From Prochlorococcus marinus subsp. marinus str. CCMP1375 (GTDB lineage Bacteria; Cyanobacteriota; Cyanobacteriia; PCC-6307; Cyanobiaceae): a stretch of DNA of 64,000 nucleotides. The DNA lies in assembly GCF_000007925.1 (NCBI RefSeq), contig NC_005042.1, forward strand, positions 558,001 to 622,000. Direction: 5' to 3'. Below are positions 7,465 through 33,846 of the stretch, piece after piece; position 1 is the first letter of the stretch, and each line of letters opens with the position of its first letter. The position numbers and the translations under genes were made by a program. The notes below the pieces were generated by a model. That model was not told the DNA's origin, ran no database searches, and worked only from the letters and a program-made list of their open reading frames with translations.

Positions 7465-8025
7465 ATGAAACAATCTAATGCTTACCCCAATAAGAAGCTT
7501 GTTGATAAAGCTGATGTAATAGCTCGCACTGTTGTGAGTCAACAATCTTTTTATCGATCTAAAGATTGTAATGAGAACCATCGCCAACTTCTAGAAACGA
7601 TGATAGGCGCTGCTATTTGGTACTTGCCTCATGGTAAGGAGTTTTGGACCGGTGGTATCTCAGTTGAAGCATTAAAAAAACTTAGTGAAACTAAAAAAAT
7701 CACTTCTCTTACTAAAGATCATAAATACCCTCGAAAAGTTGCAGCCGCTGAACTTTTTAAAGTCGACTGGTCAGAGATTCCAAATCATTGTGATGAAATC
7801 GTAAACCGCTATCAAAGAAAATATGGTCTCTTTAACTATGTCACACCTACTGAGAATAAGAGGCTTGTTAAATATCAAAAAGGGCATGTTTTTATCAGTC
7901 CAGAAGATTCTTATAGACAGGCTGGAATTTTACTTCAAAAAATATCTGTTGATCAATTAAATTTGATAAGGAAGGGTGATCTTCAACTTACTGAGTTGGC
8001 GATAACAAATCAGATCAATGTTTGA
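7465..8025 (+). CDS. Hypothetical protein co-transcribed with helicase-nuclease
   Basis: This is a 186-residue soluble protein. A central block reads ENHRQLLETMIGAAIWYLPHGKEFWTGGIS, followed by Lys-rich sequence and, near the C-terminus, FISPEDSYRQAGILLQKIS. It has no membrane segment and no motif that I can name. Its last 8 bases overlap the start of the 1189-aa helicase-nuclease gene, which is strong evidence for coupled translation. It is probably a partner of that enzyme, but this is inferred only from the overlap. Confidence 0.65.
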   Translation: MKQSNAYPNKKLVDKADVIARTVVSQQSFYRSKDCNENHRQLLETMIGAAIWYLPHGKEFWTGGISVEALKKLSETKKITSLTKDHKYPRKVAAAELFKVDWSEIPNHCDEIVNRYQRKYGLFNYVTPTENKRLVKYQKGHVFISPEDSYRQAGILLQKISVDQLNLIRKGDLQLTELAITNQINV

Positions 8026-11000
8026 AGTAATGAAACGTCAAATCACACCCACTCAACTTGCATTATTTAGTAGAAGTCCAGTTATTGGTGCTTGGTGGGA
8101 AGAGTTAAATAAAATTGATCCAGAGAGTGCACCAAAACCACAGCCTGACTCATTGGATAAATTATTGATTGACTTTGGTCATGAACACGAAAAAATATTG
8201 ATTAACGATTTAATAGCACAAGGATACAGAGTGAATGTGAAGTGGGTTAAAGGAAAGATGACATCACTCAATTTCCAAGAGACACTAGATGCCATGCACA
8301 ACGGAGATGATTATATATATCAAGCTTGTTTGCAAAATGATGAACTTCGAGGCTCGGTTGATCTCCTTCAGCGAATTGATAAGTCTTCGAAACTAGGGCC
8401 ATGGAGTTATATACCAATTGAATGCAAACTCTCTAGTCATCCTAAGCCTATTTATTTAGTCCAAGGATGCGCATATTGCGAGTTGCTTGAGCCTATCCTT
8501 GGGACACGACCTCAACATTTTAAGCTTTATTTAGGGGGAAAGAAATTTGAGAAAGGAGCAGATGGATTTTTAGTTAATGACTATTGGATGTGGTATAGAC
8601 GTCTTCGTGATCGATATCGGAAGTTTCTAGACACTTTCGATTCTAATAAACAACCAGAACATGCTCCTGGTGATCATGGTCATTGGTCTTCTTTTATTGA
8701 AGAAGAATTAGTGAAGAAACGAGATTTGATCCTTGTTGCTGGTATGAGACAAAGTCAGAGGGAAAAGTTGATTAAAGCAGGTATATCCACTATTGAGCAA
8801 CTTGCTAATAAAGTTGCTAATAAATCAAATACGACAACCATACCTGATTTAGATGAGAATATGTTTATTAGATTAAAGGAACAAGCTGAGATTCAGACAT
8901 CTCCAATGGGAGAAGGAGGGAGACCACCTTATAAAGTTCGCCCCTTAGATGAGCAGACGAAAGGTTTAGAAATGTTGCCTGAGGGTGATACTGGAGATAT
9001 TTGGTTTGATATGGAGGGATACCCAAACCCCCTTACAGGGAAGAAACTTGAATATCTTTTTGGTGCTTGTTATAAAAATAACGAAGACAAGGTCGAGTTT
9101 TTTCCTTTATGGGCCCATGATGAGATACAAGAAGAGAAAGCTTTTAATGATTTTATTGAATGGGTAAAAAATCGCCGTATAGCTTACCCCAAGCTTCATG
9201 TTTACCATTATGCAAATTATGAAAAAGCAGCTTTAGGGAATCTTGCTTTAAAGTATAAGGATCATCAACCTTTGTGGGAAGAATGGTTAAGAGAAGAACT
9301 ATTTGTCGATCTCTATCCTATCGTTCGAAATGGGATACTTCTTGGGGCTCCAAGTTATTCGATTAAAAAGGTTGAAAAGCTCTATTTAGGTGATCGTAAC
9401 GAAGAAATTAGTACTGCTGTTGATTCTGTTGTGCAATATGCAGAATGGTTAAAGTCCGGAGAAGCAAAATTAACGGGTGATTCAATTTCGTCAAGTGAGC
9501 GACTTCAAAACCTTCAAGATTACAACGAAAAGGATTGTGAGTCTACTAAGCAACTTCAAGATTTTCTCATTGATAGGCAGAGGGAGATGCTCATTTCTCC
9601 TCGTCTTAATAAGTTCAGTAATTTAGAGGAGGAGGTTTTAAATAAAAAGCTTAGAGATTTAGAACTAATAGCAAAGAAAATGAGAAAAGAAGTTTCAGAT
9701 CCAAATAATGATCAACACCTAAAAGGATCAGATGGGTTGAGTTTTAAACATCAAAAGCTTGTCTCATATTTGATTGAGTTTCATGAAACAGAGGGGAAGG
9801 TTGAATGGTGGGAGTTCTTTAACCGGAGAGATCAAACGACTTCTGATGAGCGATATTACGATACAGAAATAATTGCTAATGCTAGAAAAATAGGCAAAAA
9901 AACAATTAAAAAAAGTGAAGGATATATTTATGAATTTAAAGCTGAACAGCCTTTAAAGCTTTCGAATAAACCTGGTCTGAATATGTCCTTTTCTTTAGCT
10001 GAATTTAGAAAGAAAAAAGAGAGACTTATTTCTAAAGATAAATTAGGTACAAATAATAATGAAGATAAAAAGAAAATATTTTCTCTTGTAGGCAACTTTT
10101 GTGAAAATGATCCAACAAAAATTGTTCTCAAAGTTGGAGCCAAGAAGAAAGAATATTTAGATGAAATGGGTTTTAAAGAACTTCCCTCGCATTGTGATTT
10201 GATTCTTTTTCCTAGGCAGATTTATCAATATATGCTTCCTGATTTAGTTAGACAAGCCAAAGCCTGGGTCGAGGTAAAGAAACCATTTTCAAAGGCAATG
10301 GTTCATTTATTAGAAAAAAGGAAAATACCTGAACTTATAAAGCTCAATCAGCAAATTTGTAATACACCAGATAAGGTAGCTACCTTATTAACTGACTTTT
10401 TATCAACAGCAAAGGGGATTGCACTTTCACTGCAAGGTCCTCCTGGAACTGGAAAAACTACTGTTACAGGAGAACTCATTGCTAGATTGGTGAAAGAAGG
10501 TAAACGAATAGCTGTTAGTTCCCAGACTCATGAGGCGATTAATAATCTACTTAAGTGTGTAGATGAAAAGGCAGAGTCATTAGCAGTAAATCCTTTTATT
10601 GTTAAAATAAGTAGTGGTACGAGTAAGAAAAGTGATAAGCGATCTCTTAAGGGGACAAAAATACAGTCAATTAGTCAGAAAGCTTTCAACTCCGAACATA
10701 CTGTGCTTGGTGCCACAGTTTTTAGCTTAGTGAAGGAATGTTTTAGTGAGGAACCTTTTGATCTTTTAGTTGTTGATGAGGCTGGGCAGGTCTCTTTAAG
10801 TAATCTTTTGTTTATGAGTCAGTGTGCTCGCAATATTTTGCTTGTTGGCGATCAAAATCAATTGTCTCAACCAAATCGTGCGGCACATCCAGAAAATAGT
10901 GATTTAAGTTGCTTGGATTATATGATGGGGGATGAAAAAATAGTGCCTACTGACCGAGGTGTGTTTTTGGCTACCAGTTGGAGAATGCCTCCATCATTAA

Positions 11001-11587
11001 CTTCAGTTGTTTCTGAGCTTTTTTATCAAGGTGAACTGCAGTCATGTATATCTAAATCAGAGAACAAGATCCTTTGGGAAGGATTACAACAAGGCTTGTC
11101 TTTTGAACCAGTGGAGCATTCTTCTAATTCAAGTGAAAGCAAGGAAGAAATTGATCGAATTGAGCAATTGGTGAATCAATTGCTTGGTTGCTCATATCAA
11201 TTGGTTCAACAAAATAGCGAAGGGACATCATTACTTCAAGGCATTATTGGCCGTGATGAGATACTGATTACGGCTCCTTATAACCTTCAAGTAAATCGAC
11301 TTGAGAGGCGTTTATCTAGTAAAGCTCGAATAGGAACTGTTGACCGTTTTCAAGGCCAACAAGCTCCTATATCGATTCATTCCCTTACTGCAAGTGATGC
11401 TGAAAATGCTCCTAGAGGAATTGGATTTGTTTTGGACCCAGATCGTTTAAATGTTGCAATTAGCCGAGCTCAATGTTTATCTATTGTCGTTGGCTCTCCT
11501 TCTCTGGCCACAGGGATTGCGGGTACTGTTGAAGGCGTTATGCAGTTAAACCGACTTTGCCGAATCATGGACACAGCGACCAAATAA
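8018..11587 (+). CDS. RecB-like (TM0106-type) nuclease fused to superfamily 1 helicase
   Basis: This 1189-residue protein has two parts. The N-terminal half starts with TPTQLALFSRSPVIGAWWEE and has the layout of TM0106-type RecB-family nucleases, including a DIWFDMEGYPNP segment near residue 330. The C-terminal third is a UPF1/Dna2-type helicase: Walker A GPPGTGKTT at about 807, a DEAG box at about 920, a GDQNQLSQP motif III, then SWRMPP, TVDRFQGQQ and a final RLNVAISRAQ. Related fusions are widespread and are thought to process DNA, often in defence contexts. It closes a three-gene operon (7292-11587). Alternative start at 8030. The family assignment is solid; the biological role is inferred. 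Confidence 0.85.
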   Translation: MFEVMKRQITPTQLALFSRSPVIGAWWEELNKIDPESAPKPQPDSLDKLLIDFGHEHEKILINDLIAQGYRVNVKWVKGKMTSLNFQETLDAMHNGDDYIYQACLQNDELRGSVDLLQRIDKSSKLGPWSYIPIECKLSSHPKPIYLVQGCAYCELLEPILGTRPQHFKLYLGGKKFEKGADGFLVNDYWMWYRRLRDRYRKFLDTFDSNKQPEHAPGDHGHWSSFIEEELVKKRDLILVAGMRQSQREKLIKAGISTIEQLANKVANKSNTTTIPDLDENMFIRLKEQAEIQTSPMGEGGRPPYKVRPLDEQTKGLEMLPEGDTGDIWFDMEGYPNPLTGKKLEYLFGACYKNNEDKVEFFPLWAHDEIQEEKAFNDFIEWVKNRRIAYPKLHVYHYANYEKAALGNLALKYKDHQPLWEEWLREELFVDLYPIVRNGILLGAPSYSIKKVEKLYLGDRNEEISTAVDSVVQYAEWLKSGEAKLTGDSISSSERLQNLQDYNEKDCESTKQLQDFLIDRQREMLISPRLNKFSNLEEEVLNKKLRDLELIAKKMRKEVSDPNNDQHLKGSDGLSFKHQKLVSYLIEFHETEGKVEWWEFFNRRDQTTSDERYYDTEIIANARKIGKKTIKKSEGYIYEFKAEQPLKLSNKPGLNMSFSLAEFRKKKERLISKDKLGTNNNEDKKKIFSLVGNFCENDPTKIVLKVGAKKKEYLDEMGFKELPSHCDLILFPRQIYQYMLPDLVRQAKAWVEVKKPFSKAMVHLLEKRKIPELIKLNQQICNTPDKVATLLTDFLSTAKGIALSLQGPPGTGKTTVTGELIARLVKEGKRIAVSSQTHEAINNLLKCVDEKAESLAVNPFIVKISSGTSKKSDKRSLKGTKIQSISQKAFNSEHTVLGATVFSLVKECFSEEPFDLLVVDEAGQVSLSNLLFMSQCARNILLVGDQNQLSQPNRAAHPENSDLSCLDYMMGDEKIVPTDRGVFLATSWRMPPSLTSVVSELFYQGELQSCISKSENKILWEGLQQGLSFEPVEHSSNSSESKEEIDRIEQLVNQLLGCSYQLVQQNSEGTSLLQGIIGRDEILITAPYNLQVNRLERRLSSKARIGTVDRFQGQQAPISIHSLTASDAENAPRGIGFVLDPDRLNVAISRAQCLSIVVGSPSLATGIAGTVEGVMQLNRLCRIMDTATK

Positions 11588-11925
11588 TTACAAAATCCCT
11601 AGGGCACTTTTTTTGCCTTTCCTTTTGATTTTTTATCTTACATATGCAGAGCATGTGCACAATCCTTGTGATGATAAAAGGACAGTATTCACCTACAGCA
11701 ATGTGCTATTCAAAAACCTAAATAATCAAATCAGGAATTAAGAAAAGATCTTACGCCTAAAACCTTTAATCAATGTATTTCAATTGCTGATAAGGTTTGC
11801 CAAGAAACCTATGCTCTTTATAGGAAAGGATCTATCTACCCATTTGTAGTCATTAATTGTCAAAAGGATCTAAAACAATGGGTCTCATGTCGTTTTAATA
11901 AAGGGCTCAAAGGTGGATGTAGTGA
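11588..11925 (+). pseudogene. Possible decayed small gene in gap
   Basis: Within this gap one frame reads CQETYALYRKGSIYPFVVIN and ends GLKGGCSD at a TAG near 11930. It has no start codon. A second frame just upstream (TVFTYSNVLFKNL) ends where the first becomes open. This suggests a frameshifted remnant. Nothing else is seen here. Confidence 0.3.
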
Positions 11926-12129: not shown

Positions 12130-12761
12130 GGTCTTACCTCCGCTGTTGGTTGAACTTTTACTGTTGAGGTCAATTCCTCTTTAAAAATAAATTTCTCAGC
12201 ACTTCCTGAAACCTGCATCCATGCAGATGCAGGAGGTTCTTCAAAGGTTGCCTTACATCGCGATGAATTTGTTCCACCTTTTTCAAAGAAGGTTTGTTCT
12301 CGTCTTGTCCAATTCAAATAACCCTTTGCTCTAAAGTTTTTTAATTCATTTGAGCACCACCATTCAGCATCTTCTCTTAGGGAAGTAAATGCTTTTGGAA
12401 TTGATTTGGTTCCATACACAGCTGGTATGTAGCGAATGGTTAGATACGGATCAATATCTGTATCAGCCCATTGATTCCATTTGACTTTTTGTTCTTCAAT
12501 TTCTTTGCGATGAGCCTCTTGATCTTGTGTGATGCATTTTTGCAATGCATCTTTTTGAGGATTTAATTCATTGATTAGTTTTTTAAACCAATAAGAACTT
12601 ATGTCTCCATTGAGCTCAAATTGTCTTATTAGGCTTCCAATCTTTGAGATGTTTCTTGCTTGCAGGATGGAAGCAAGTTGACCGGGCTTTAGTTCCCGTT
12701 CTATGCGTAAATTCGCTAAATATCGGGACACATGCGTGCCTCGATTATGATGGATTGTCAT
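12126..12761 (-). CDS. Hypothetical protein with possible N-terminal helix-turn-helix
   Basis: This protein has 211 residues. Residues about 11-68 (YLANLRIERELKPGQLASIL, then GSLIRQFELNGDISSYWFKK) read like an XRE-type helix-turn-helix, with the Arg/Glu/Gln spacing of such domains. The rest has an acidic region and many Trp residues but no recognised catalytic motif. It is the first gene of a two-gene operon. A DNA-binding role is a moderate-confidence inference. Confidence 0.55.
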   Translation of the reverse strand: MTIHHNRGTHVSRYLANLRIERELKPGQLASILQARNISKIGSLIRQFELNGDISSYWFKKLINELNPQKDALQKCITQDQEAHRKEIEEQKVKWNQWADTDIDPYLTIRYIPAVYGTKSIPKAFTSLREDAEWWCSNELKNFRAKGYLNWTRREQTFFEKGGTNSSRCKATFEEPPASAWMQVSGSAEKFIFKEELTSTVKVQPTAEVRP

Positions 12762-12777
12762 TAAAACTGTCGGTAGC

Positions 12778-12834
12778 GTTCCTGCTCATCAACCCTCTTG
12801 GGTTCCAGGTTTGACCACCTTGCCTAGCAGGAAC
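12778..12834. other. Inverted repeat, candidate structured RNA
   Basis: GTTCCTGCT (12778-12786) pairs perfectly with AGCAGGAAC (12826-12834). Inside lies a second hairpin, AACCC (12791-12795) with GGGTT (12800-12804). It sits in the gap between divergent genes. It may be a leader, an operator or a small RNA. Confidence 0.35.
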
Positions 12835-12948
12835 AACGGCAGGTTGGTGATTGACAATCCCCTGAAGGATTAGCGTCAATACTCGGGATGAACGGAGATA
12901 ACTCCTTACAGTTAAGTTACCATAGATAATAATAAAAAGCGTTTAATT

Positions 12949-13101
12949 ATGAGAACTTGGGATATTAGATACAAATTGACAAAAGTAGGAGGAAAATATT
13001 TTTTGAAAAGAGTTAATGCTACTTATCAGCATGAGGCGAATAAAATTCTTGACGCTGAAATGCCTGGTGCTTATCGTTGTGGATCTGCCAGCCTTGTCTG
13101 A
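12949..13101 (+). CDS. Small hypothetical protein, 50 aa
   Basis: ATG 12949 to TGA 13099-13101 encodes a 50-residue protein that begins MRTWDIRYKLTKVGGKYFLK and has a central EANKILDAEMPGA segment. Its layout, with a beta hairpin and then a helix ending near a Pro, resembles the 55-aa protein at 7292. It could be a member of the same small family. The role is unknown. Confidence 0.5.
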   Translation: MRTWDIRYKLTKVGGKYFLKRVNATYQHEANKILDAEMPGAYRCGSASLV

Positions 13102-13123
13102 GCTTAAAAAATAGAAGTGAATT

Positions 13124-13642
13124 ATGAATACATTGCAAACTAAAATTTTTAATGTCATCAATGCAATTATACGCATTGATGATTTTGGTGAATATTATAA
13201 GGATCACACAATTCGATATGGGGTTTTGAATTATGTCGCCAAGTTTAGCCTTTCTAAAGACAAATACTTGATTACGGCGAAAGCCTATAGGCATTTAGAG
13301 TTAAATGGCTTTTTGAATGAGAAGGGATTGAGGCGAGGATTAAAATCTAGAAAAAATGGTTTTACATATGAACACCCAGTTCCATCAAATAGAATTTCAG
13401 CGGAGATAATAAAATATCGCTATGACGAAGATATGGTCGCAAAAATCCTTAATTGGACTGACTATATAGTTGTCCTGACAACTGATGAAAATAATTCTAT
13501 TAAGGATTCGGGTTTCCAAAATAATATGCCTGAGGACTGGATCTTTTTTAAAGATAATATTTTTGAAAGATATAAGTTTTCTCCTCTCGTTGAAGATATA
13601 CCTTCACAGGAAATTAACGTATATGGTCAAATTTGTAGATGA
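13124..13642 (+). CDS. Hypothetical protein, 172 aa, downstream of retron
   Basis: This is a soluble protein. Residues about 70-95 contain a basic stretch (GLRRGLKSRKNGFTYEHPVPSNR), with an EHPVPS motif reminiscent of some nuclease-like proteins but not diagnostic. The second half is acidic. It is transcribed toward the retron operon, with an integrase remnant in between, so it is not part of that operon. I cannot name a family. Confidence 0.5.
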   Translation: MNTLQTKIFNVINAIIRIDDFGEYYKDHTIRYGVLNYVAKFSLSKDKYLITAKAYRHLELNGFLNEKGLRRGLKSRKNGFTYEHPVPSNRISAEIIKYRYDEDMVAKILNWTDYIVVLTTDENNSIKDSGFQNNMPEDWIFFKDNIFERYKFSPLVEDIPSQEINVYGQICR

Positions 13643-13899: not shown

Positions 13900-15318
13900 T
13901 TATTTTGAAATCCATAAGTGTTTTGAAGACAATGTTGTAGCTAATTCTGGTGAAACCATATTGATGTAAGATAAATATCCACGAGCTACAGCAATTGCAT
14001 TTTTCCCGATGTCTTTAGATACAAATTCTAGACCTTTAGTTTCACAATGATGTAGAAAGGCTCGGAACTTACGCAAATCATTTCTACTAATTCGAACATC
14101 TTTATTGACAACTAATCCTGTTACTGTTTGGCGATGAGGATGTCTCATTATATTAGTTTTATGCTTATTGATTCTAAACCCCTCGCTTGCAACGATCTTT
14201 GAAGCAGCTTTGACAAGGCGGTATGCTGGCATTTCTTCGGCATTGCTTGAGAATACAAGATCATCAGCATATCTTGAGTAAATCCATCCTATCTTTTCTG
14301 TATATTTCTGTAGGCGACGATCTAGTTTATGGGCGATTAAATTTGCCAATGCTGGAGATGTACATGCTCCTTGAGGAAGGTTGCGGGGACCTACTTTTAC
14401 AAAGTGAGTTTCTCCATGATATTTTAAAATTATTCTAGGACTATCGGTACATAAAAGACTAAATACCGTAGATATTCCAGGATTATATCCTAGGGACTCA
14501 AATAGGCCTCTTATACGTATGAAGGTGATTGAAGGGAAGAAATCTTTAAGATCTAATCGTAAAACTACTTTTGAATTGGCATGTAATTTTGCATTGTCTA
14601 ATATTGATTTACCAGGCCTAAAAGCTGTCGCTGCTGAGTGAATATCAAGCTTGTTTAATATAGATTCTAGAATCCATTTTTGAGCATTTCTTAAAGCTGG
14701 TTTCGGACTGGATATTAGGCGAGATCCACCTGATTTCTTTGGGATTTCGAATCTCGTATAGTGGTCAATTTTTTGAGAGTCTCTTTCATAAGTTAACCAC
14801 TGTAGGCTATTTGGGGTTGTTTCTAACGTTGATGATAATTCTGCAAAGGTTGTGATCACGGGTAATCCGTTTAGCTCAAGTTTCTCTGTATTACCCCCTG
14901 TAAAATTCAGTCGATTAGATACGTCTCTACCTAGAAAAGTTGGAGACTTAATTCGCTGTTCATAAGCTAATTTTGAACGCTCTTTGCGTTGAGATTCTTT
15001 TTTTTGTTTGCGATCTTCATTTTTTTGCTTTACACGTTTAATCCTTTCGGAACGTATTTTTTCAAGAGCTACTTCAACTGAGTCAATAGATTCTATCTCT
15101 TCATTAGTTGCTCTTATGAAATTTGAAATATCAGATAACTTTGATTTTGCTTGTTCGTATTCCTCTAAAGAGATTCCACTAGCTTCTATCATTTTTGCTA
15201 TTTTCTTGTTGCTCAGAAAACCCAGTCGAGACATTTCCTCAAATTCATATGCGGCTTGTCCAATTTCATCAAGTCTTTTCCGCCAATTTTGATTAATACT
15301 CCTCTCTTCCTTGCTCAT
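13900..15318 (-). CDS. Retron-type reverse transcriptase
   Basis: Retron RTs copy part of a partner RNA into msDNA, a branched RNA-DNA hybrid used in phage sensing. The 472-residue protein has a charged N-terminal extension (about 150 residues, coiled-coil-like near 90-120). It then shows the retron NAxxH motif as NAKLH (242-246), motif A RLDLKDFFPS with D256, LPQGACTSP at 314-322, the catalytic YADD at 350-353, and the retron VTG motif at 399-401. It is the last gene of a three-gene operon, starting 1 base after the SWIM gene ends. The long extension and partners fit type XIII retron RTs. All catalytic residues are intact. Confidence 0.9.
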   Translation of the reverse strand: MSKEERSINQNWRKRLDEIGQAAYEFEEMSRLGFLSNKKIAKMIEASGISLEEYEQAKSKLSDISNFIRATNEEIESIDSVEVALEKIRSERIKRVKQKNEDRKQKKESQRKERSKLAYEQRIKSPTFLGRDVSNRLNFTGGNTEKLELNGLPVITTFAELSSTLETTPNSLQWLTYERDSQKIDHYTRFEIPKKSGGSRLISSPKPALRNAQKWILESILNKLDIHSAATAFRPGKSILDNAKLHANSKVVLRLDLKDFFPSITFIRIRGLFESLGYNPGISTVFSLLCTDSPRIILKYHGETHFVKVGPRNLPQGACTSPALANLIAHKLDRRLQKYTEKIGWIYSRYADDLVFSSNAEEMPAYRLVKAASKIVASEGFRINKHKTNIMRHPHRQTVTGLVVNKDVRISRNDLRKFRAFLHHCETKGLEFVSKDIGKNAIAVARGYLSYINMVSPELATTLSSKHLWISK

Positions 15319-15319
15319 T

Positions 15320-16963
15320 TTATGTACCCCCCATCAAGCTAAGTGCGACAATATGTCTACAAGGTCCAAATTTAAGCTTGTTGTATCGAAAATAAGAACA
15401 ATCGCATTGGGCAAGTTTAACTCTATTATCTGAGTCAGTTTTGAGGGATGGGTGATTGATTTTGCCATTATAGTTTACTTTGCCATTAATACTTCTACTG
15501 TCTGTCGCGATTTCATCAGACATGATTTCAATAGCATTCTCTTTAAATATTTGAATGCCTTTTCTTTCTTCGGTTCCAGTTTCATTAGTTGATTTGAGGT
15601 TGAGATTAGGAAATAGTTGCCTCCAGCGATAAATCCCTGGATCAGGGTCGAACATCGCAGAGCCAGCTAAGCATAAGCGCTGTAAAATACGTCTTGACTC
15701 AATTGGACTGGAATTCAATGAATTAGATAGATCATCTACCGATAAAGATCCCTGAGCCTTTAAAAGATCTGCCGCTTTTGAAATCGTTTCAATTGGAGCA
15801 TCAGATGCAGGGACGATAGCGGAAAAACGTGCTCGCCCAGCCCAGTCTTGTGATGTCCATCCAGAAAGACCAATTGTTAATGTTATTTCATCTATTTCTA
15901 AACTCCAAAATGAAGGCATCCCTGAGTCAATTAGTCTGACATTTACTTTAGGTTTCAATGGCAATAAATCTTTTATAACTCTAAGTCTTCTTCTCCCCCA
16001 AACTTTTATTTTTTTGTTTTCTGTACCCTCATATGGGATATCTGAAACCGTAAAAACATCATTCCATGGTTCTACTATGATTTGAGGTGGTTCGCCAGCA
16101 ACGAGATCAAAGATCAAGGATCTTGGCCCATGCTTTTCTCGTTCTGAATCCAATCTTGCTATAACATCTGCGAGAGCTGAAGATGAGAGATTAATTTGGA
16201 TTGGTGCTAGAGATAGAGATGCTTGTACTTCAACTAAACCTTTGACCCAAGATTCCGGTAAGTCTATTTTCTTTTCGACTGTTGAGGAAATGCCAGTATC
16301 AATACCAACAGAATCGGAACCAACAGTTAGATGTAGTGGTCTATATGCTCTTGTACGTGCGAGTTCTTTTTCTAAAGGAATACTAAAGTCAATATTCGTA
16401 GTTCCAAGCAATGGTTTGCTTTTAGTTCGTGTGACGTGATGGGGTAAAAGTACTCTTGCATATGTTGACTCGTCTTTAGAAAATGCTTCAAAAAAAGTCG
16501 CATCAGATTGAACGCTGACTATGGGATCAAGAATTATCCATGCCTCTCGATTGTGATTGTAAAGCCACTTCCAAAAAGCTTTAGTTTCCTTGGAAACACT
16601 TTTAGCACTATGAAATTTGTTGATTATCTTTTTTATTTCAATTTTTTCTTTCTCTAAGTTTTCTTTTTTGGTCAATAAACTCGGAAGTTTTTTTGCTGCG
16701 TCTAGTTGATATTGTGGAAGTTCTTTTATGTATTCTCCTTTGACCCATTTTTGATAAGCTGAATGATCGCGTTCAATTAGATTATCTTGCATTTTTACTA
16801 CTTGTCCTAATGCCAGCATTAAACGAGCAAATGAATGGCTAGGCATAATATCTGCGCTTAGAAAAACAGGTGATTGTGCAACATCTGTCCCAAACGTGAT
16901 ATCACTATTTTGGGATGTAGATCTAGCTACTGATTTAGTGTAGAGACCTTGATAAGTAGGCAT
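15320..16963 (-). CDS. SWIM zinc-finger protein of retron operon (WHSWIM-like)
   Basis: This is a 547-residue protein. The C-terminus carries a textbook SWIM finger: C520-x-C522, then C535-x-H537 (CDCSYF...GPCRH). The segment before it (around ISKAADLLKAQGSLSVDDLS to RILQRLCLAGSAMFD) looks like a winged helix. This combination is the WHSWIM effector described in type XIII retrons. The N-terminal two thirds has no motif I can name. Its start overlaps the stop of the 930-aa ARM-like gene and its stop is adjacent to the RT start, so the three are translationally linked. It probably binds nucleic acid as part of the retron effector. Confidence 0.85.
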   Translation of the reverse strand: MPTYQGLYTKSVARSTSQNSDITFGTDVAQSPVFLSADIMPSHSFARLMLALGQVVKMQDNLIERDHSAYQKWVKGEYIKELPQYQLDAAKKLPSLLTKKENLEKEKIEIKKIINKFHSAKSVSKETKAFWKWLYNHNREAWIILDPIVSVQSDATFFEAFSKDESTYARVLLPHHVTRTKSKPLLGTTNIDFSIPLEKELARTRAYRPLHLTVGSDSVGIDTGISSTVEKKIDLPESWVKGLVEVQASLSLAPIQINLSSSALADVIARLDSEREKHGPRSLIFDLVAGEPPQIIVEPWNDVFTVSDIPYEGTENKKIKVWGRRRLRVIKDLLPLKPKVNVRLIDSGMPSFWSLEIDEITLTIGLSGWTSQDWAGRARFSAIVPASDAPIETISKAADLLKAQGSLSVDDLSNSLNSSPIESRRILQRLCLAGSAMFDPDPGIYRWRQLFPNLNLKSTNETGTEERKGIQIFKENAIEIMSDEIATDSRSINGKVNYNGKINHPSLKTDSDNRVKLAQCDCSYFRYNKLKFGPCRHIVALSLMGGT

Positions 16964-19755
16964 TAGTCTGTCCTTGGTGACACATTGCTGACTTGAATAT
17001 CATTAAACTCAACTCCTTGACAAGTTAGCAATGCAATTGTCTTAAGTGCCCATTCTTGGTCACGTAAATTAGAACCTTTAGCTAAATCTAGAAGTGCTTC
17101 TTTTCTTTCTGGAGTTAGCAATTCGTTGCTCATAATCTTATTGTTTGAACTTAGCCGATTTTTTATCATTTCTTTAGCACGACGATTTTTTCTTCGAGTG
17201 ATTAATATACGACGATCGAATGATGCTATAGAAGAATTTTCTTCCCATTTATGCGTAAGTATCTCCTTAACTGCTCTGGCTTGAACTTTTGGGTCATCTG
17301 AATTAACTAAAGCTTTAGCTATAAAATTCTGATCAATACGATGATTTTCTTGCTCAAGAAGTTCAAGTCCCAGATCTCTTAATGGAGAAACCATACTGTC
17401 AATACAAGTAACAACATATTCAGTGAATTGATTTCTATCCGAAATTGACTCTAAAAAGTCTCTTACCTCCTGTAATGGTATAGGTAAGCCTAATTCTCCA
17501 ATAGTTAGCCAACAGTTTTCAAATTCGTTAGAGTTAATTATTTGACTTAATACTATCTTTTGTATAGATGGGTTTGGGATAGCAACCAAGCCAATCGCGA
17601 ATGTTCGATCACTTCTTATTCTGGTTGGCTTTAAATTAATATAACGAATTAAAAGTTCTTGCTGTACGGGAGTAGTTGCTTTGATTTGTTCTGGGTCTAA
17701 TGAATCTCCAACTGATTTGACAAAATCCGTATCGCTCAAGAGCACATCTTTAAGAGTATTCAAATGGTTTTGCTCAAGCTCATTCCAAGCAACAAATTTT
17801 AATTCTGAAATTTTTGAAATAAGCCAAGTTTTTTCATCATCATTAAATTTCCAAGCAGTATCAGTTAAAAGTTCTGAAATACTTTCTTGTAAATTAGTGA
17901 TTCTATCTACGAAGCTTAATACAAGTTTTAATCGTACTTTAGACCATTGCTCTAGAAGTAATTCCGATTCGTCTTTGTGTTTGAGCCAATCTAATAATTG
18001 ATTCTCAATATAGTTCTGGTTTGCTGCTAGTTTAAAGAATTCCCAACCTAATTGATTTATAGATTCATCACTATTCTCAAAACAAACCTTAGCCAATTTA
18101 ATTAACTCTTCATTGTCATCAGAGACTGAGTCAAAAATGGTTTTGGAAATTAAACTCAAATTAGCTTCTTTGATAGAATCATTCTTAAATATACTTATAT
18201 AAGAGTAGAGTAGAACAGATAAATCAATATCTTTGAAAATTCTTTTCCATTGACTTTCTGAATTATTAAAATTAAAGTATAAAGAACTTAATTCAATAGA
18301 TTGACTTATTATATCTTTCGTTTCATTAGCTTTATCCCATTGATATTTATTGCAATAGTTTAATAAATATAGTTGGCTTATTTCACCCAATCGTTTATAA
18401 TCTAACTGCGATAAAGTATTGTCATTATTTGCATTTGAATTGATAATTTCTCTTAATTCTGAGCCAAGAGTATAGAATTCATGCTTGCTATTATTAATTA
18501 TCTGAGCAATGCCAGGAAAGAGATTGAGATCACTATTTAAAAGAAATTCATTCCATATATTTGAAGGTATTTTATTCCAAGTGCCTGGATATTTATGTAT
18601 ATAAGGAAGAACTATTTTTATAACTTTTTGATCTGAACTTAATAGAGCTAATTTTAGATGTGCTTCATTTAATTCTGGAATTTGTTGTCCATTTTCAAGA
18701 AGCACTTGAATGCAAAAGGTGAAAACTTCAGATGAAAATCTAATAGATTCTAGAATAGAGTAAATTTTATCAAGATTATTGTTCCATAATTCTGGATATG
18801 ATTCTTTTCTAGACTCCTGTATAAATGGAATCTTTATGTATCTACTTTTTGCATCAAGGATTGAATCAGAACCAGCTAATATATATGCAGGAATATATGA
18901 ATTTGATTGAATGCTTGAATCCCATTCAATTAGTATATTTTCAGCAATAGTTGTATATATATCTGGTTCTTTATTGCCAATGCTTGATAATAATCTACGC
19001 ATGCGCCTAGACATATATTGACAAGTAAGTTTACTTGGTACTGGCATGAAATAATTCATCCAAGAGATATCTTCACAGTTACTAAACTCTTCAAGATATT
19101 GATTAGAATTAAAAATATCTGCGGAAGAGAAACCTTTCATTTTGGCAAGTCTCCCAAGGGCTTTCCCAAACTCAACTGGCATAAGTTTTGGATCAAGAAA
19201 TTTCATTAAACATTTGAAAGGTCCCCAATAGCCAAAGATGAGTGGTGCTTCTGTTAATAGTATTTTCACTAATCGCAGCTCATTACTAGTTAAAGTTTCT
19301 GTGTTACGAACTTTTATTGATAGTTTTTGAGCAGATGCAAGTGATAGTTTTGAAATTGAGGATTCTTCTTCATTCCCATCAACAAAATTTATTATTTTTA
19401 ATTCATTTAAATTGTGTTTGATTTTACTTTCTAATTCTCGTCTTTTGTCTTCTTCAATTGTATTTTCACTATAAGAGGTTAGCATCTTTTTCAGTATCCC
19501 TTTGATATCGTATGTTTCACTATTCTTGTCTTCATAAGTATTCTTCAATACATCTTTGATTTCATCAAATTCTTTTGATTCTCCCCAATATGTAAAAATT
19601 GGCTTGAAAATTTCCCCCCAATACCCTTTCTTTTCAATCAGTTGGAATAAAATACGAGATTTGTTTTTTAGGTTGCTTTGAAGAATAAAAAATTTTATAT
19701 CATTTGATACTAACTGTGCTGCAAATTTTATTTCTGATGAAAACGCTTTTGCCAT
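16963..19755 (-). CDS. Large helical-repeat protein of retron operon (ARM-like)
   Basis: This 930-residue, almost entirely alpha-helical, Leu/Ser/Asn-rich protein has no membrane segment and no enzyme motif. Repeated helix pairs are visible especially in the last 300 residues (e.g. ELLEQENHRIDQNFIAKALV, then DDPKVQARAVKEIL), typical of armadillo/HEAT solenoids. In type XIII retrons a large ARM protein accompanies the WHSWIM protein and the RT, and this gene has exactly that place. It is the first gene of the operon, beginning 17 bases after the candidate ncRNA. It may be a scaffold or sensor for the retron complex; this is inferred. Confidence 0.8.
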   Translation of the reverse strand: MAKAFSSEIKFAAQLVSNDIKFFILQSNLKNKSRILFQLIEKKGYWGEIFKPIFTYWGESKEFDEIKDVLKNTYEDKNSETYDIKGILKKMLTSYSENTIEEDKRRELESKIKHNLNELKIINFVDGNEEESSISKLSLASAQKLSIKVRNTETLTSNELRLVKILLTEAPLIFGYWGPFKCLMKFLDPKLMPVEFGKALGRLAKMKGFSSADIFNSNQYLEEFSNCEDISWMNYFMPVPSKLTCQYMSRRMRRLLSSIGNKEPDIYTTIAENILIEWDSSIQSNSYIPAYILAGSDSILDAKSRYIKIPFIQESRKESYPELWNNNLDKIYSILESIRFSSEVFTFCIQVLLENGQQIPELNEAHLKLALLSSDQKVIKIVLPYIHKYPGTWNKIPSNIWNEFLLNSDLNLFPGIAQIINNSKHEFYTLGSELREIINSNANNDNTLSQLDYKRLGEISQLYLLNYCNKYQWDKANETKDIISQSIELSSLYFNFNNSESQWKRIFKDIDLSVLLYSYISIFKNDSIKEANLSLISKTIFDSVSDDNEELIKLAKVCFENSDESINQLGWEFFKLAANQNYIENQLLDWLKHKDESELLLEQWSKVRLKLVLSFVDRITNLQESISELLTDTAWKFNDDEKTWLISKISELKFVAWNELEQNHLNTLKDVLLSDTDFVKSVGDSLDPEQIKATTPVQQELLIRYINLKPTRIRSDRTFAIGLVAIPNPSIQKIVLSQIINSNEFENCWLTIGELGLPIPLQEVRDFLESISDRNQFTEYVVTCIDSMVSPLRDLGLELLEQENHRIDQNFIAKALVNSDDPKVQARAVKEILTHKWEENSSIASFDRRILITRRKNRRAKEMIKNRLSSNNKIMSNELLTPERKEALLDLAKGSNLRDQEWALKTIALLTCQGVEFNDIQVSNVSPRTD

Positions 19756-19772: not shown

Positions 19773-19990
19773 AGGCTGTTCTACTGCCCTATCTATGATC
19801 GGTGTCGATCACTGTAGGCGTCTAGCGGCTTAGGCCGGCCTAAACTTTGAAGGACTCGTAGAGTCGTTTCAGAGAAAGGTTTAGGCCGGCCTAAGCAGCT
19901 AGATGCTGAGAGACATCGTCAGCCGATGATGGTTTTGTAGCTTAACTACTGCCTTGGCGAAACGCCAAGGTTTAATTGCTAGAACAGCCT
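19773..19990 (-). ncRNA. Candidate retron ncRNA (msr-msd)
   Basis: Transcribed on the minus strand, immediately before the operon. The ends form a perfect 11-bp inverted pair: a1 at 19980-19990 and a2 at 19773-19783 (AGGCTGTTCTA/TAGAACAGCCT). Directly after a1 comes AGC, whose G (complement of 19979) is the expected branching guanosine. An 8-bp msr hairpin (CCTTGGCG, loop of 3) spans 19952-19970, and a second small hairpin lies at 19914-19928. The msd part is a 25-bp stem with one mismatch, 19821-19845 with 19879-19903. Each arm of that stem contains the 14-base palindrome TTAGGCCGGCCTAA, and a small GACTC/GAGTC hairpin lies in the loop. The architecture fits a retron RNA very well. Confidence 0.85.
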
Positions 19991-19999
19991 GCCTAAAAA

Positions 20000-20005
20000 A
20001 TCATA
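20000..20005 (-). promoter_or_regulatory. Candidate -10 element for retron ncRNA/operon
   Basis: TATGAT on the minus strand lies 10 bases before the a1 end of the ncRNA, a proper distance for a -10 box. No clear -35 element is seen at 17 bases, so the call is tentative. Confidence 0.3.
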
Positions 20006-20130
20006 GGATAGAATTGTTGATTTGATAATCAAATAGCTTTAATAATGAGAAATTTTAATTTTTTAAAATTGATCTCATCTCAGATGTAGACCTTTATCTT
20101 TTAACAGATTCATTAAATTTAATTCTTTTT

Positions 20131-21900
20131 TCAGTTACCCCAATTGCGTAAAATGTATTTCCAGGCTCTCTGCTTGGAATCACCATCATCATTAAGTTGT
20201 GCCAGGATAGCTAATGATGCATTTTTGTTTGATCCAGCAGCTTTTCTAAGTAATGGTTTAGTTGAATTACTAAATATTACTAAAACCTCTTCAGAAACCT
20301 TTTCTCTCTTTAGCCTTTCAAGCTTTTGATTTTCATCAAGCTTTTGCCAATCGCTTGGTAATTGACGTTGTAAGATTGCTTCCGTTATTTCAGATTCACC
20401 CTCTTTCGCAAGTTGTTTAAGAACATCCTCAGGGGTATTTTCATTGGAAGCAACTGCTGCTCTTATTTGTGTATAATTCCAGCTTTTGAATTGTGCAAGT
20501 ATTGTTAAAACCTCTTCAGAGACATTTTGATTATTGATTTTTTCCAATTTTTCATCTTCATCAAGTTGTCGCCAATCGACTGGTAATTGACGATTTAGAA
20601 CAGCTTCTTGCACATCAGAAGCATCATCTTTCGCAAGTTGTTTAAGAACATCCTCAGGGGTATTTTCATTGGAAGCAACTGCTGCTCTTATTTGTGTATA
20701 ATTCCAGCTTTTGAATTGTGCAAGTATTGTTAAAACCTCTTCAGAGACATTTTGATTATTGATTTTTTCCAATTTTTCATCTTCATCAAGTTGTCGCCAA
20801 TCGACTGGTAATTGACGATTTAGAACAGCTTCTTGCACATCAGAATCATCATCTTTCGCAAGTTGCTGAATAACTTCTTCAGGTGTGTTTTCATGAAGTG
20901 CAATTGCTTTACGAATCTCCCAATTACTACTTTGTGCAAGTATTTCTAGAATATTCGTCGGAACATTGTCTTCTTTAAGCTTGTCGAGCTTTTCATCATC
21001 ATCTAGCTCTCTCCATTCTTTTGGTAATTCTCTATAGGCAACTGCGTTTAGAGCAGCTTCTTGCACATCAGAATCATCATCTTTCGCAAGTTGTTTAAGA
21101 ACATCCTCAGGAGTATTTTCATTGGAAGCAACTGCTGCTCTTATTCGCCAATTACTGCTTTTAGCAAATGCTTTTAAAATATCAGGACCAACATTTTCTT
21201 CTTGTAATTTTTCGATTTTTTCAGCTTCATCAAGTTGTCGCCAATCGACTGGTAATTGACGATTTAGAACAGCTTCTTGCACATCAGAATCATCATCATC
21301 ACGAAGTTGTTCTATAACATCAGATGGCGTTTGTGGGTTTAATGCTATTGCTTGGCGAACTTCCCAATTCTCAGAGTCAACAAAACGACTAAATATCTCT
21401 TTTGGAAGATCTGTCTCTTTTAATTTTTCTATTGCTTCATCGTCCTCTAATGAGTCCCAATCATCTGTGGCAGCATTTATTTTTTCAACTTCCTTCTCTG
21501 GCGTAACGTTTTCACCTTTCTCCTCTGAAGAAAGGTTGACACCTTTAGCTTCTAATAGAGCTTCGTAAAACGCTGTGAAATTAAGTCTTTCTCCCCCATC
21601 TTTTTTTGTAGATACATAACCACAAGCTTTGACTAAATCACTTTTGCTTACATCCCCAAGCTCTTTGATTTTTTCTAAAAGTGTAGTCCCTTTTAAGGGC
21701 TCGATTGATTCAACTTCCTCAGAACTTTCAATTGTTTCTGGATGTTGTTCTAGTTGAGGTCCTTTAGGCATCAATAGCACCCATCCAATAGGCATTAGGG
21801 CTATTATCAATACCCAAGGACTTGCTACAATGCCAATCACCAGTAATGTCAGTGTTAGTAAGCAAGCATTGCGATATTCAGACCAGAGTCGCTTCAGCAT
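20131..21900 (-). CDS. Membrane-anchored LRV-repeat protein with cyAbrB-like domain (paralogue A)
   Basis: This 589-residue protein starts with a hydrophobic hairpin (residues about 10-45, including LTLTLLVIGIVASPWVLIIA). Next is a domain at about 70-118 (SKSDLVKACGYVS, then LNFTAFYEALLEAKG) that resembles the N-terminal part of cyanobacterial AbrB-like proteins. From about 175 to the end there are acidic leucine-rich-variant repeats of the kind IRAAVASNENTPEDVLKQLA, each joined by LPxxWRxLDExEK linkers. Two 75-residue units (20403-20852) are nearly identical at DNA level. It is a close paralogue of the 1110-aa gene at 22239. The role is unknown; a scaffold at the membrane is a guess. Confidence 0.7.
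   Translation of the reverse strand: MLKRLWSEYRNACLLTLTLLVIGIVASPWVLIIALMPIGWVLLMPKGPQLEQHPETIESSEEVESIEPLKGTTLLEKIKELGDVSKSDLVKACGYVSTKKDGGERLNFTAFYEALLEAKGVNLSSEEKGENVTPEKEVEKINAATDDWDSLEDDEAIEKLKETDLPKEIFSRFVDSENWEVRQAIALNPQTPSDVIEQLRDDDDSDVQEAVLNRQLPVDWRQLDEAEKIEKLQEENVGPDILKAFAKSSNWRIRAAVASNENTPEDVLKQLAKDDDSDVQEAALNAVAYRELPKEWRELDDDEKLDKLKEDNVPTNILEILAQSSNWEIRKAIALHENTPEEVIQQLAKDDDSDVQEAVLNRQLPVDWRQLDEDEKLEKINNQNVSEEVLTILAQFKSWNYTQIRAAVASNENTPEDVLKQLAKDDASDVQEAVLNRQLPVDWRQLDEDEKLEKINNQNVSEEVLTILAQFKSWNYTQIRAAVASNENTPEDVLKQLAKEGESEITEAILQRQLPSDWQKLDENQKLERLKREKVSEEVLVIFSNSTKPLLRKAAGSNKNASLAILAQLNDDGDSKQRAWKYILRNWGN
20403..20852 (-). repeat. Two-copy 225-bp tandem repeat inside LRV gene
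   Basis: Copy 1 is 20403-20627 and copy 2 is 20628-20852. They are identical by eye apart from one difference (gaagcatca versus gaatcatca). Each encodes 75 residues, so the reading frame is kept. The near-identity implies a recent duplication. Confidence 0.85.
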
Positions 21901-22003
21901 CTAGATCACTAGTTTTCTTTAATTTAGCCTCTCACTCATTAATTCAAAAGAATCCTCTCTTCAATTTACTAGTTCTTAATCCAGCGTCTTCTCCACCACT
22001 CCA
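21539..22003 (-). repeat. 465-bp duplicated segment, copy 1
   Basis: This segment is almost identical to 25210-25674 at a constant offset of 3671. It covers the first about 120 codons of paralogue A and about 100 bases upstream of its start codon, so promoter and N-terminus are shared by both genes. Confidence 0.85.
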
Positions 22004-22192
22004 AAAGGCATCCCAAATACCATCGACCTTATTACGAAGATCGCCTGTAAGAACTGATTCTGCTGTTACCCCTGGGGCAAGTTGCTCACTCAAGGAAGTT
22101 AATTAAACCTTCTCTATAGCTTGCCTCAATTTTCACTTTTTGTGTTTTTTTATCTTTAGACCCTATACACCTCTATTTATTAATCTATGGAT

Positions 22193-22240
22193 TTAAAGCC
22201 TTTTTAAAGCCGCATCTCTAACGTCATCATCATCGTCATT
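22193..22240 (-). pseudogene. Leftover LRV-repeat C-terminus after paralogue B
   Basis: Directly after the stop of the 1110-aa gene, in another frame, the minus strand reads NDDDDDVRDAALKRL and then stop. This is the acidic end of an LRV repeat. It suggests that the gene once ended with repeats and that its present C-terminal domain was acquired or shifted later. Confidence 0.5.
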
Positions 22241-25200
22241 ACATAAGATTCAATATCTCTGCAGAATTATTCCATTCTTCATCACCGTTGTAATTGCTAT
22301 AGATAACTGTTGTCTTTCCCTCTTTGATAGAGAATATTGTAAATTGGTCATCATATCCACGATCAATGATTTCATAATCTTCTTCAATTTCTTCTCCATC
22401 ATATTTAAAGCCAGTAATTATATTGAAATCAGGATGACCATATAAACCATGTTTAATTTCAGATGGAAGTCTTATCGGCACACATGTCTCCTCCAATTTG
22501 TCATTATCAAATTCTTCATCTAGTTCAAATTCGAATTCAATTGAGCATTTTGATAAACTCATGAGTACAGCATAAATTCCATCCTTAAACTTTTCAGTTT
22601 CTTTATCTTCATCAGGACCAATTCTTTGCAAATATTCGTTGAAAAAGATTCTCCCTTCATTACCATATTCACCTTCATCACCACTATTGACAACTCCCTC
22701 AGCATCAACACCACTATATCTAAGTTCATCTAATGCCTCGTCCAAATTCATTTTACTAATTGATTGAATTAATAAATTCACCTGATTTTGATCTAATTGG
22801 CTAAAAGCAATTCGTCCTCCAGGCTCTGTTTTCATATAAATACTCTTTCTTTCTTTCCCAAAGGCGTCTGAATTTGGGTTAAGGATTCGCAATGATTTAT
22901 TTGCAGCTTCCTTGACGTCATCATCCTCATCTTCCCTAAGAGTGGTTAGAATTTTTTCGGGAGTTGAGGTGTTTTGGGCAACAGCCTGACGAACATGCCA
23001 ATCTGAGGATTTAGAGAAAAATTCAAGAATTATCTCGTTAGCCAACCCTTCTTCAAATCGTTTTATTAATTCTTCTTGTTCTAGTTCTCTCCATTCTTCA
23101 GGAAGTTCACGTTGCCTAATTGCCTCCTTAACTTCACTATCGGAATCATTAGCTAAAATATCTAGTATAGGTTGAGAGGTCTTGTCAGATCTTGCTATAG
23201 CTAATCTGATTTGATAATTAGGAGAGAGTGCAAGTGTATTAAAAACTTCAAGAGGAACATCTGAGCTTTTCAATGCTGATATCCTCTCCTCATCTGACAT
23301 AACAACCCAATCAGATGGCATAGTTGTCTCTCTAAATGCAGCCTTTATATATTCATCATCATCTTGACGTAGATGATTTAAAATATCATCTGGCGTATCA
23401 GGGTAATAAACCACACAAGCACTAAATTGTTTATTATCATATGAACTGGTGAATTCTTCTTCATCTCGTTTTAAAAGAGTATTTATAACCTTTAGACTCG
23501 GATGTTCATTAATCATTCTCTTGCGTATTTCGCCTATGTCTTCATCTTGAATGAGCTTGATCCAATCATTTGGCAAGCCATTCAAAAGAGCTGCACGTCT
23601 AACTAGAATTCCATGAGTATCATCATCATGTAGTAGTCGGTTTATTGTTTCTTTCGAGCAATTAGGATTAAGGGCAACAACTTCTTTTACCCATCCACTA
23701 TTTACATCATTAGCTAACATCCCCAAAGTTTCCTGCGGAGTTTTTGGATTGCCAGCCACTGCACTTCGAATATACACAGGTCCATATTCTGCACAAGTCT
23801 TGAGCATTTCTTCTTCTGCATCTTCTTGCTTAAGAGCTTCAATAATCGCTTGCTCTTCCATTGCCCTGAATTCAATAGGTATCTTCCTTCGATATAGATT
23901 TTCTCTGGCTAAATCGTCTACACTATCAGAACAGGAATTCTCTCTCCAGTTAACTTCTGATTCTTTAATAAGCTTAATTAAAACCTCCTCAGAGGTGGAA
24001 GTGTTTTCTGCTATGGCACACTTTAATTCATGATTATCAGTACTTGAAAGCACTTCAAGTAACTCTTTGGACGCACCTCTCTCATTAATTCTTTTTGCGA
24101 TATTTGATAAGGACATCGATCTTAATTCGGCTGGAAGTTGACTCTTTTTAATACAACCCACCTCGTCATCGTCTATGCTTTTATCGTTATCATCTTTATT
24201 GATTGAGTATTCATAGGAGATTTCTTTTGCCTTTAAAGCTTTTTTTGTAGCTTTTTTTACATCATCATCATCATCATGAATAAGTATTTTCAGTATATTT
24301 TCTGTCGTACTAGGACTTTGAGCAACAGCTTGCCTGATTCCCCAATTGTTTGAAGTAGATAAGATTTCAATAATATTGTCATCAACATTTTCATCATCTT
24401 TAAGTTTTTCAATTTTCTCGTCATCATCAAGCTTTCTCCATTCAACTGGTAGCTGCCTGTAGGCAACAGCATCTTTAACATCATCATCATCATCATTTCT
24501 AAGCTTTTCAATAATCTCTAATGGTAAATCTTCCCTCAATGCGATTGTTCTTCGAATCTCCCAATTTTCTGAATTTACAAATTTCCTAATTATATCAATT
24601 GGAACCTCTGTGCCCTTTAATCTTTCTATGAGCTCATCTTCATCTAATGCTTCCCATGAATTTTCTGAATTGACTTCATCAGCTACACCGTTATTTGACT
24701 TGTCAACTTTTATAGAGTTGATTTCTTCAAGATACTCATCCATTCCACAATTTTCTAGATACTCTGGAATCCCATAAATGTTTAATCCTTGTCTAATCCC
24801 TTCTTTGGCTACGACTAAAATACAATCCCAATGTAGTTCATCAATTTGTTCCTGTATTCCTTCATAATTTTCATCTTCCTCATCATTTGGTCCGTAAATT
24901 GTACCCTCTGGTACAGCTTCTGCTTGAGCTAATTGTTTGGCATTAAGAAATGAATTATATAAGCCAGTATTTTTTAAGTAGATATGTATCCATTCATATA
25001 AAGTTGATTCATAAGATCCTTCTAATCTTGAGAAATCATATGATCTTTGGGTGGAATCATCATAAATCTCTTGTAAATCACTAATTCCATATTCTTTTAT
25101 ATTTTCTGAAATTATTCTAATTAAGGCTTCTTCTATTGATTTCGATAAATTAGTTTGATGAGAATCTTCTCTTTGTTCTTCTGAATCACTAGAACTTGTA

Positions 25201-25571
25201 GTTATTTCAACACCTTTAGCTTCTAATAGAGCTTCGTAAAACGCTGTGAAATTAAGTCTTTCTCCCCCATCTTTTTTTGTAGATACATAACCACAAGCTT
25301 TGACTAAATCACTTTTGCTTACATCCCCAAGCTCTTTGATTTTTTCTAAAAGTGTAGTCCCTTTTAAGGGCTCGATTGATTCAACTTCCTCAGAACTTTC
25401 AATTGTTTCTGGATGTTGTTCTAGTTGAGGTCCTTTAGGCATCAATAGTACCCATCCAATAGGCATTAGGGCTATTATCAATACCCAAGGACTTGCTACA
25501 ATGCCAATCACCAGTAATGTCAGTGTTAGTAAGCAAGCATTGCGATATTCAGACCAGAGTCGCTTCAGCAT
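22239..25571 (-). CDS. Large membrane-anchored LRV-repeat protein (paralogue B)
   Basis: This is an 1110-residue protein. The first about 118 residues (hydrophobic hairpin plus cyAbrB-like domain) match paralogue A almost exactly. Residues about 130-320 are a specific insert absent from A (rich in Asp/Glu/Tyr). From about 315 to 915 there are acidic LRV repeats (e.g. IRQAVAQSPSTTENILKILI), interrupted by less regular units. The last about 190 residues form a unique acidic domain without known motif. With paralogue A it forms a tandem pair downstream of the retron. A modular binding protein with exchangeable ends is a reasonable reading; the function is unknown. Confidence 0.7.
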   Translation of the reverse strand: MLKRLWSEYRNACLLTLTLLVIGIVASPWVLIIALMPIGWVLLMPKGPQLEQHPETIESSEEVESIEPLKGTTLLEKIKELGDVSKSDLVKACGYVSTKKDGGERLNFTAFYEALLEAKGVEITTSSSDSEEQREDSHQTNLSKSIEEALIRIISENIKEYGISDLQEIYDDSTQRSYDFSRLEGSYESTLYEWIHIYLKNTGLYNSFLNAKQLAQAEAVPEGTIYGPNDEEDENYEGIQEQIDELHWDCILVVAKEGIRQGLNIYGIPEYLENCGMDEYLEEINSIKVDKSNNGVADEVNSENSWEALDEDELIERLKGTEVPIDIIRKFVNSENWEIRRTIALREDLPLEIIEKLRNDDDDDVKDAVAYRQLPVEWRKLDDDEKIEKLKDDENVDDNIIEILSTSNNWGIRQAVAQSPSTTENILKILIHDDDDDVKKATKKALKAKEISYEYSINKDDNDKSIDDDEVGCIKKSQLPAELRSMSLSNIAKRINERGASKELLEVLSSTDNHELKCAIAENTSTSEEVLIKLIKESEVNWRENSCSDSVDDLARENLYRRKIPIEFRAMEEQAIIEALKQEDAEEEMLKTCAEYGPVYIRSAVAGNPKTPQETLGMLANDVNSGWVKEVVALNPNCSKETINRLLHDDDTHGILVRRAALLNGLPNDWIKLIQDEDIGEIRKRMINEHPSLKVINTLLKRDEEEFTSSYDNKQFSACVVYYPDTPDDILNHLRQDDDEYIKAAFRETTMPSDWVVMSDEERISALKSSDVPLEVFNTLALSPNYQIRLAIARSDKTSQPILDILANDSDSEVKEAIRQRELPEEWRELEQEELIKRFEEGLANEIILEFFSKSSDWHVRQAVAQNTSTPEKILTTLREDEDDDVKEAANKSLRILNPNSDAFGKERKSIYMKTEPGGRIAFSQLDQNQVNLLIQSISKMNLDEALDELRYSGVDAEGVVNSGDEGEYGNEGRIFFNEYLQRIGPDEDKETEKFKDGIYAVLMSLSKCSIEFEFELDEEFDNDKLEETCVPIRLPSEIKHGLYGHPDFNIITGFKYDGEEIEEDYEIIDRGYDDQFTIFSIKEGKTTVIYSNYNGDEEWNNSAEILNLM

Positions 25572-33839: not shown

Positions 33840-33846
33840 AAATTTT

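Follow-up and report, generated by a model that had tools for sequence, protein, structure and literature searches.

What is encoded by the strongly structured stretch at positions 19773-19990 of this 64,000-nucleotide region of the Prochlorococcus marinus CCMP1375 genome (the window), and does it belong to the genes that follow it? An earlier note on this DNA, made from the letters alone, had proposed a retron ncRNA on the minus strand. Three lines of evidence give this identity strong support: the type XIII RT and SWIM genes nearby, the conserved location of the RNA in the operon, and covariation in both its a1/a2 repeats and its msd stem. It is therefore very probable, judging from these sequence comparisons, that the stretch is the msr-msd RNA of a picocyanobacterial type XIII retron. 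Retron types were reportedly defined by Mestre in 2020. Our literature search found no experimental papers on type XIII retrons, and this RNA may have been described earlier.

The operon lies on the minus strand in the order ncRNA, HEAT/ARM-type protein, SWIM zinc-finger protein, retron reverse transcriptase, in a window with a GC content of 36%. The ARM gene (16963-19755, 930 aa) has its ATG at 19755, with 17 bases between a2 and the ATG; the start of the SWIM gene (15320-16963, 547 aa) overlaps the ARM stop, and the RT gene (13900-15318, 472 aa) begins after a one-base gap. All three reading frames are open. The RT matches the PADLOC model RT_XIII at 5e-155 (515 bits, against 312 for the next model), which places it in the type XIII clade, and carries the retron motifs NAKLH at 241 (the NAxxH motif), YADD at 349 and VTG at 398. 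The SWIM protein matches SWIM_XIII at 7.7e-158 and the Pfam SWIM domain at 4.4e-05. The third type XIII trait, a HEAT/ARM (WGR) protein, is present more weakly (HEAT-ARM_XIII 2.7e-11, WGR_XIII 3.9e-10), yet this gene is in the right place in the operon. By sequence, neither the ARM nor the SWIM protein has a recognizable toxic domain, and in profile searches against solved structures the SWIM protein matched nothing and the ARM protein matched only HEAT-like repeat proteins, mostly designed ones. Upstream of the RNA there is a weak promoter-like match on the same strand (TTATCA-17-TATGAT, 20000-20028; two such matches were found and 1.4 are expected by chance). The last base of its TATGAT is 20000, ten bases ahead of a1, and transcription from it would start near the end of a1.

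Several neighboring genes were noted on their own account. Just upstream of the retron (20131-25571) are two adjacent minus-strand genes for proteins of 589 and 1110 aa. The N-termini of the two, membrane-like and about 120 residues long, are identical and lead into leucine-rich-variant/HEAT-like repeats. At 30602-36594 there are defense-type genes, namely an MmeI-like type IIG restriction-modification protein (33847-36594), then a DEAD helicase and a T5orf172 protein, and at 8018-11587 a protein of 1189 aa that combines RNase H-like and superfamily 1 helicase domains partially matches Mokosh MkoA.

The RNA itself has the parts of a retron ncRNA: a1/a2 repeats, an AGC with a priming G, msr hairpins and an msd hairpin. 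The a1 repeat (AGGCTGTTCTA, 19980-19990) pairs with the a2 repeat (TAGAACAGCCT, 19773-19783) at 11 of 11 positions, and the AGC overlapping the end of a1 contains the predicted branching guanosine, G19979. Next come a first msr hairpin of 8 bp with a TTT loop (CCTTGGCG-TTT-CGCCAAGG, 19952-19970), a second, GTAGT-TAA-GCTAC (19937-19949), and a third small hairpin (19905-19923), the latter two identified from the fold. The msd stem, found in both sequence and fold, has a 25-nt RNA 5' arm (TCTAGCTGCTTAGGCCGGCCTAAAC, 19879-19903) and a 25-nt 3' arm (GTTTAGGCCGGCCTAAGCCGCTAGA, 19821-19845) with one mismatch (T.C), or is 28 long with two mismatches when its GC base is included. Within each arm is a copy of the 14-nt palindrome TTAGGCCGGCCTAA, at 19881-19894 in the 5' arm and 19830-19843 in the 3' arm. 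A short hairpin, TGATCG-ACAC-CGATCA (19797-19812), precedes a2 in the fold. The terminal pair, the AGC, the 8-bp msr hairpin, the 25-bp stem with its single mismatch and the palindromes are all where the earlier note had located them. It had also suggested folding the minus strand of 19773-19990, and this gives a minimum free energy of -105.9 kcal/mol against a shuffle mean of -57.4 (sd 4.3, z -11.4), with none of 200 shuffles as good. An Rfam scan found a tRNA and no other match.

Relatives were found by searching whole genomes with SWIM_XIII, and they form two sets. Set A comes from the same family as the window genome, and its members are probably Prochlorococcus-like cyanobacteria; relatives in the window genome's class carry GCGATCGC sequences, the cyanobacterial HIP1 motif. 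Set A comprises G135 (L026), G449 (L027), G570 (L028), G755 (L168) and G794 (L169, truncated); the RNA is present in three complete operons and in a fourth on a short contig. Set B comes from other cyanobacterial families (L029-L045) and is joined by a Methylobacterium bullatum plasmid (NZ_LR743510.1, L174). Peptide scans for relatives of the RT turned up a single close locus, L002, which is truncated, and no match in viral contigs; no SWIM protein was found in phages. A 14-base pattern had too many matches in viral contigs, which looked like chance hits, and a 23-base pattern had none. The L002 RT is 94% identical to that of the window, and its contig starts inside the ARM gene and so has no RNA. 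This contig, which carries the retron, is assigned to a gammaproteobacterial MAG (TMED78), likely through a binning error, or else the retron was transferred. The RT tree gives set A 100/100 support as a group and a long branch, and the same holds for set B with the Methylobacterium plasmid, although the tree was rooted by midpoint and does not prove the direction of change.

Covariance comparison with homologues, which had been proposed as a check, revealed compensatory changes in both the a1/a2 pair and the msd stem. In L026, L027, L028 and L168 the a1/a2 pair is 14-16 bp long with sequences that differ from those of the window; counting from the junction, positions 1 to 11 are all paired in 5/5 sequences, and two or three kinds of base pair occur at positions 6 to 11. 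Loss of this pairing in close homologues had been named beforehand as evidence against a retron; pairing is kept in all of them. Across the five sequences the msd stem has 134 of its 140 cells paired, and both sides have changed at 23 of 28 positions, with the registers for these pair counts set by hand from the stem ends or base. Elsewhere the RNA has highly conserved parts: the AGCAA at the predicted branch site and ATGTCTCTCAGC, at the third small hairpin and adjoining the msd stem, are invariant in five sequences, and CGCCTACAGTGATC, at the hairpin before a2, is invariant in the relatives. The place of the RNA is conserved too, with the distance to the ARM gene being 18 nt in L026 and L027, 21 nt in L028 and L168, and 17 in the window. 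Comparison shows the RNA, its pairing and its conserved place in the operon as well as the identity of the RT and SWIM genes.

Between close relatives, changes are concentrated in the core of the msd stem. L026 and L027, whose coding genes are ~93% identical at the DNA level, differ at 11 of 56 stem positions against 3 of 169 others (p 2e-5), and L028 and L168, at ~85%, differ at 15 of 60 against 9 of 167 (p 9e-5); these p values overstate the case somewhat because paired sites are not independent. At most of the changed stem pairs both sides have changed and pairing is kept. On these alignments the stem core is rewritten in concert, in both arms at once, and appears to be selected for pairing and not for a fixed sequence. 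The concerted rewriting could come from selection or from a copying mechanism acting on inverted repeats, and two pairs cannot tell these apart.

Symmetry within the arms is a second property of the stem. The palindrome in each window arm had been called unusual, which it is, without being extreme (p 0.012 against shuffled arms), and the claim that GGCCGGCC is rare holds, as the 1.75 Mb genome has only three copies and this RNA accounts for two. The 14-nt palindrome is not conserved as a sequence, and each relative has some dyad symmetry in its arm, for example TGTTATAG...CTATAACA in L028 and TGTTATAGC...GCTATAACA in L168. For the best inverted repeat in the 5' arm, the shuffle p is 0.012 in the window, 0.14 in L026, 0.083 in L027, 0.0025 in L028 and 0.001 in L168. 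In this sample L026 is not independent of L027, nor L028 of L168, and it was the palindrome that led to the choice of the window. The shorter stems of set B (10-15 bp) have no notable arm symmetry against shuffles. There is moderate support, then, for dyad symmetry that recurs in set A stems, though not as one sequence.

One explanation that would add to the retron reading is that a symmetric (dimeric) protein, be it a DNA-binding protein, a restriction enzyme or a methyltransferase, recognizes the dyad-symmetric stem as a double-stranded site. The msDNA would then sense phage or other foreign enzymes, and the fast change of its core would reflect selection to track or avoid them. We regard this as possible and on the whole unlikely. 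It would account for arms that are self-symmetric to some degree in all five set A sequences and not in set B, and for stem changes that are both concentrated and concerted, and it has a precedent in Ec86, which is activated through the msDNA stem-loop by a phage Dcm-like methyltransferase (PMC13158370). However, the symmetry comes from three lineages only, and without the window two groups remain, one of them at p ~0.1; nor is there a shared site, since GGCC occurs in three of the sequences and in neither the L028 nor the L168 stem. The more specific proposal that the picocyanobacterial type XIII stem is a rapidly rewritten recognition site of this kind, keeping its symmetry while its sequence changes, with which the msDNA senses a symmetric phage methyltransferase or nuclease, we hold to be somewhat less likely again. 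The earlier note's suggestion of a fixed GGCCGGCC binding site finds no support because that sequence is not kept in the relatives.

The note had also raised the idea that the msDNA could form two separate hairpins in place of a single long one; a switch between these forms we consider very improbable. Each arm can indeed fold on its own, or form a duplex with another molecule (arm:arm, -19.2 kcal/mol), but with DNA parameters the single hairpin is at -35.0 kcal/mol and the separated fold at -11.4, in the same order in all five relatives. Since one hairpin is better by ~24 kcal/mol, a two-hairpin form could only be transient or held by a protein. Finally, that the inverted repeats belong to an unrelated structured element (a terminator or insertion-sequence end) or to a decayed retron is scarcely credible, as the RT, SWIM and ARM frames are open and compensatory change keeps the RNA pairing in relatives whose RT and SWIM proteins are 53-62% identical to those of the window, which already contradicts it. 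The type XIII retron reading stands, and the retron in the window is a genuine, intact-looking, divergent branch of a known retron type, divergent in the place of its RNA and in its stem.

The place of the RNA had drawn attention because it lies 17 bases before the ARM gene and not before the RT. The observation is correct, and the arrangement is common to the picocyanobacterial clade; other retrons, however, are already known to vary in having ORFs that separate msr-msd from the RT (PMC6868368). In set B, where an RT was found, the RNA is directly upstream of it (about 2-140 nt), with L030, which has other ORFs between, as the sole exception, and on the Methylobacterium plasmid it is just before the RT as well, so by this comparison it is set A that has the RNA at the head of the operon. 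Set B and the plasmid share with the window the RT and SWIM families, a HEAT/ARM protein and a structured RNA in which GCAA follows a1, the first hairpin is 8 bp long and there is an msd hairpin. They differ in that the RNA adjoins the RT, the msd stem is only 10-15 bp, the RTs are a separate 100/100 group and, going by count, the ARM protein carries a WGR domain: Pfam detected WGR in 6 of 11 scanned ARM homologues, which is the number of set B and Methylobacterium members, while the window ARM protein had no Pfam match of any kind, WGR included. WGR is a nucleic-acid binding domain, and in set A ARM proteins it may be lost or altered.

From the set B msr sequences a covariance model was built (60 positions, with L174 in the training). 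It found L038, which was outside the training, at 1.8e-15 and matched the window RNA only weakly, though in register at 19983-19922 (8.3 bits, E 0.078 in 801 bases). The set A RNA is far diverged from that of set B, and this match falls short of proving by sequence that the two share descent. Two set B loci have features of their own. L031 has two tandem type XIII ncRNAs (~10212-10395 and 11492-11721, with SWIM on the + strand) with different msd stems and near-identical ends, and no RT was found within the stretch examined. In L032 the type XIII RT (12311-13522) is split over two reading frames downstream of an intact-looking ncRNA.

How the window retron would work can be proposed by analogy. 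In Retron-Eco1 (Ec86), type II-A, the RNA comes first, an accessory gene lies between RNA and RT, and 2'-5' priming occurs at the G of AGC. The window retron shares this RNA-first order and the AGC guanosine, whereas in Retron-Eco1 the RT is of another clade and the place of the ARM and SWIM proteins is taken by a nucleoside deoxyribosyltransferase-like effector. Transcription would start near a1, and a1 and a2 would pair, presenting G19979. The RT would then prime from the 2'-OH of this guanosine at the base just inside a2 (~19784) and copy the msd; the product would be a branched RNA-DNA molecule with its DNA folded as one 25-28 bp hairpin. An AGC priming G is the rule in known retrons (PMC6868368). 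The msDNA and RT may bind ARM and SWIM in a complex that keeps them inactive. A phage factor (a nuclease, DNA methyltransferase or ssDNA-binding protein) would then alter or strip the hairpin and release the effector, which on this scheme must be ARM, SWIM or both. The msDNA acts as a trigger-sensing latch in Ec86 (phage Dcm-like methyltransferase), Ec83 (msDNA degradation) and Eco8 (phage SSB) (PMC13158370). We infer cDNA synthesis, the complex, its trigger and defense from such systems, and for latch and release in particular the case seems about evenly balanced. An anti-phage role is probable, given what the type XIII family and the defense-like neighbors in the window suggest.

The locus offers a complete RNA-ARM-SWIM-RT operon with a predicted branch site and predicted cDNA ends. 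Less ordinary are the leading position of the RNA in the operon and the msd stem, which is long, changes fast and is often self-symmetric. Where two close relatives have RNAs that differ mainly in the core of that stem, the pair serves as a natural experiment on the function of the msDNA stem.
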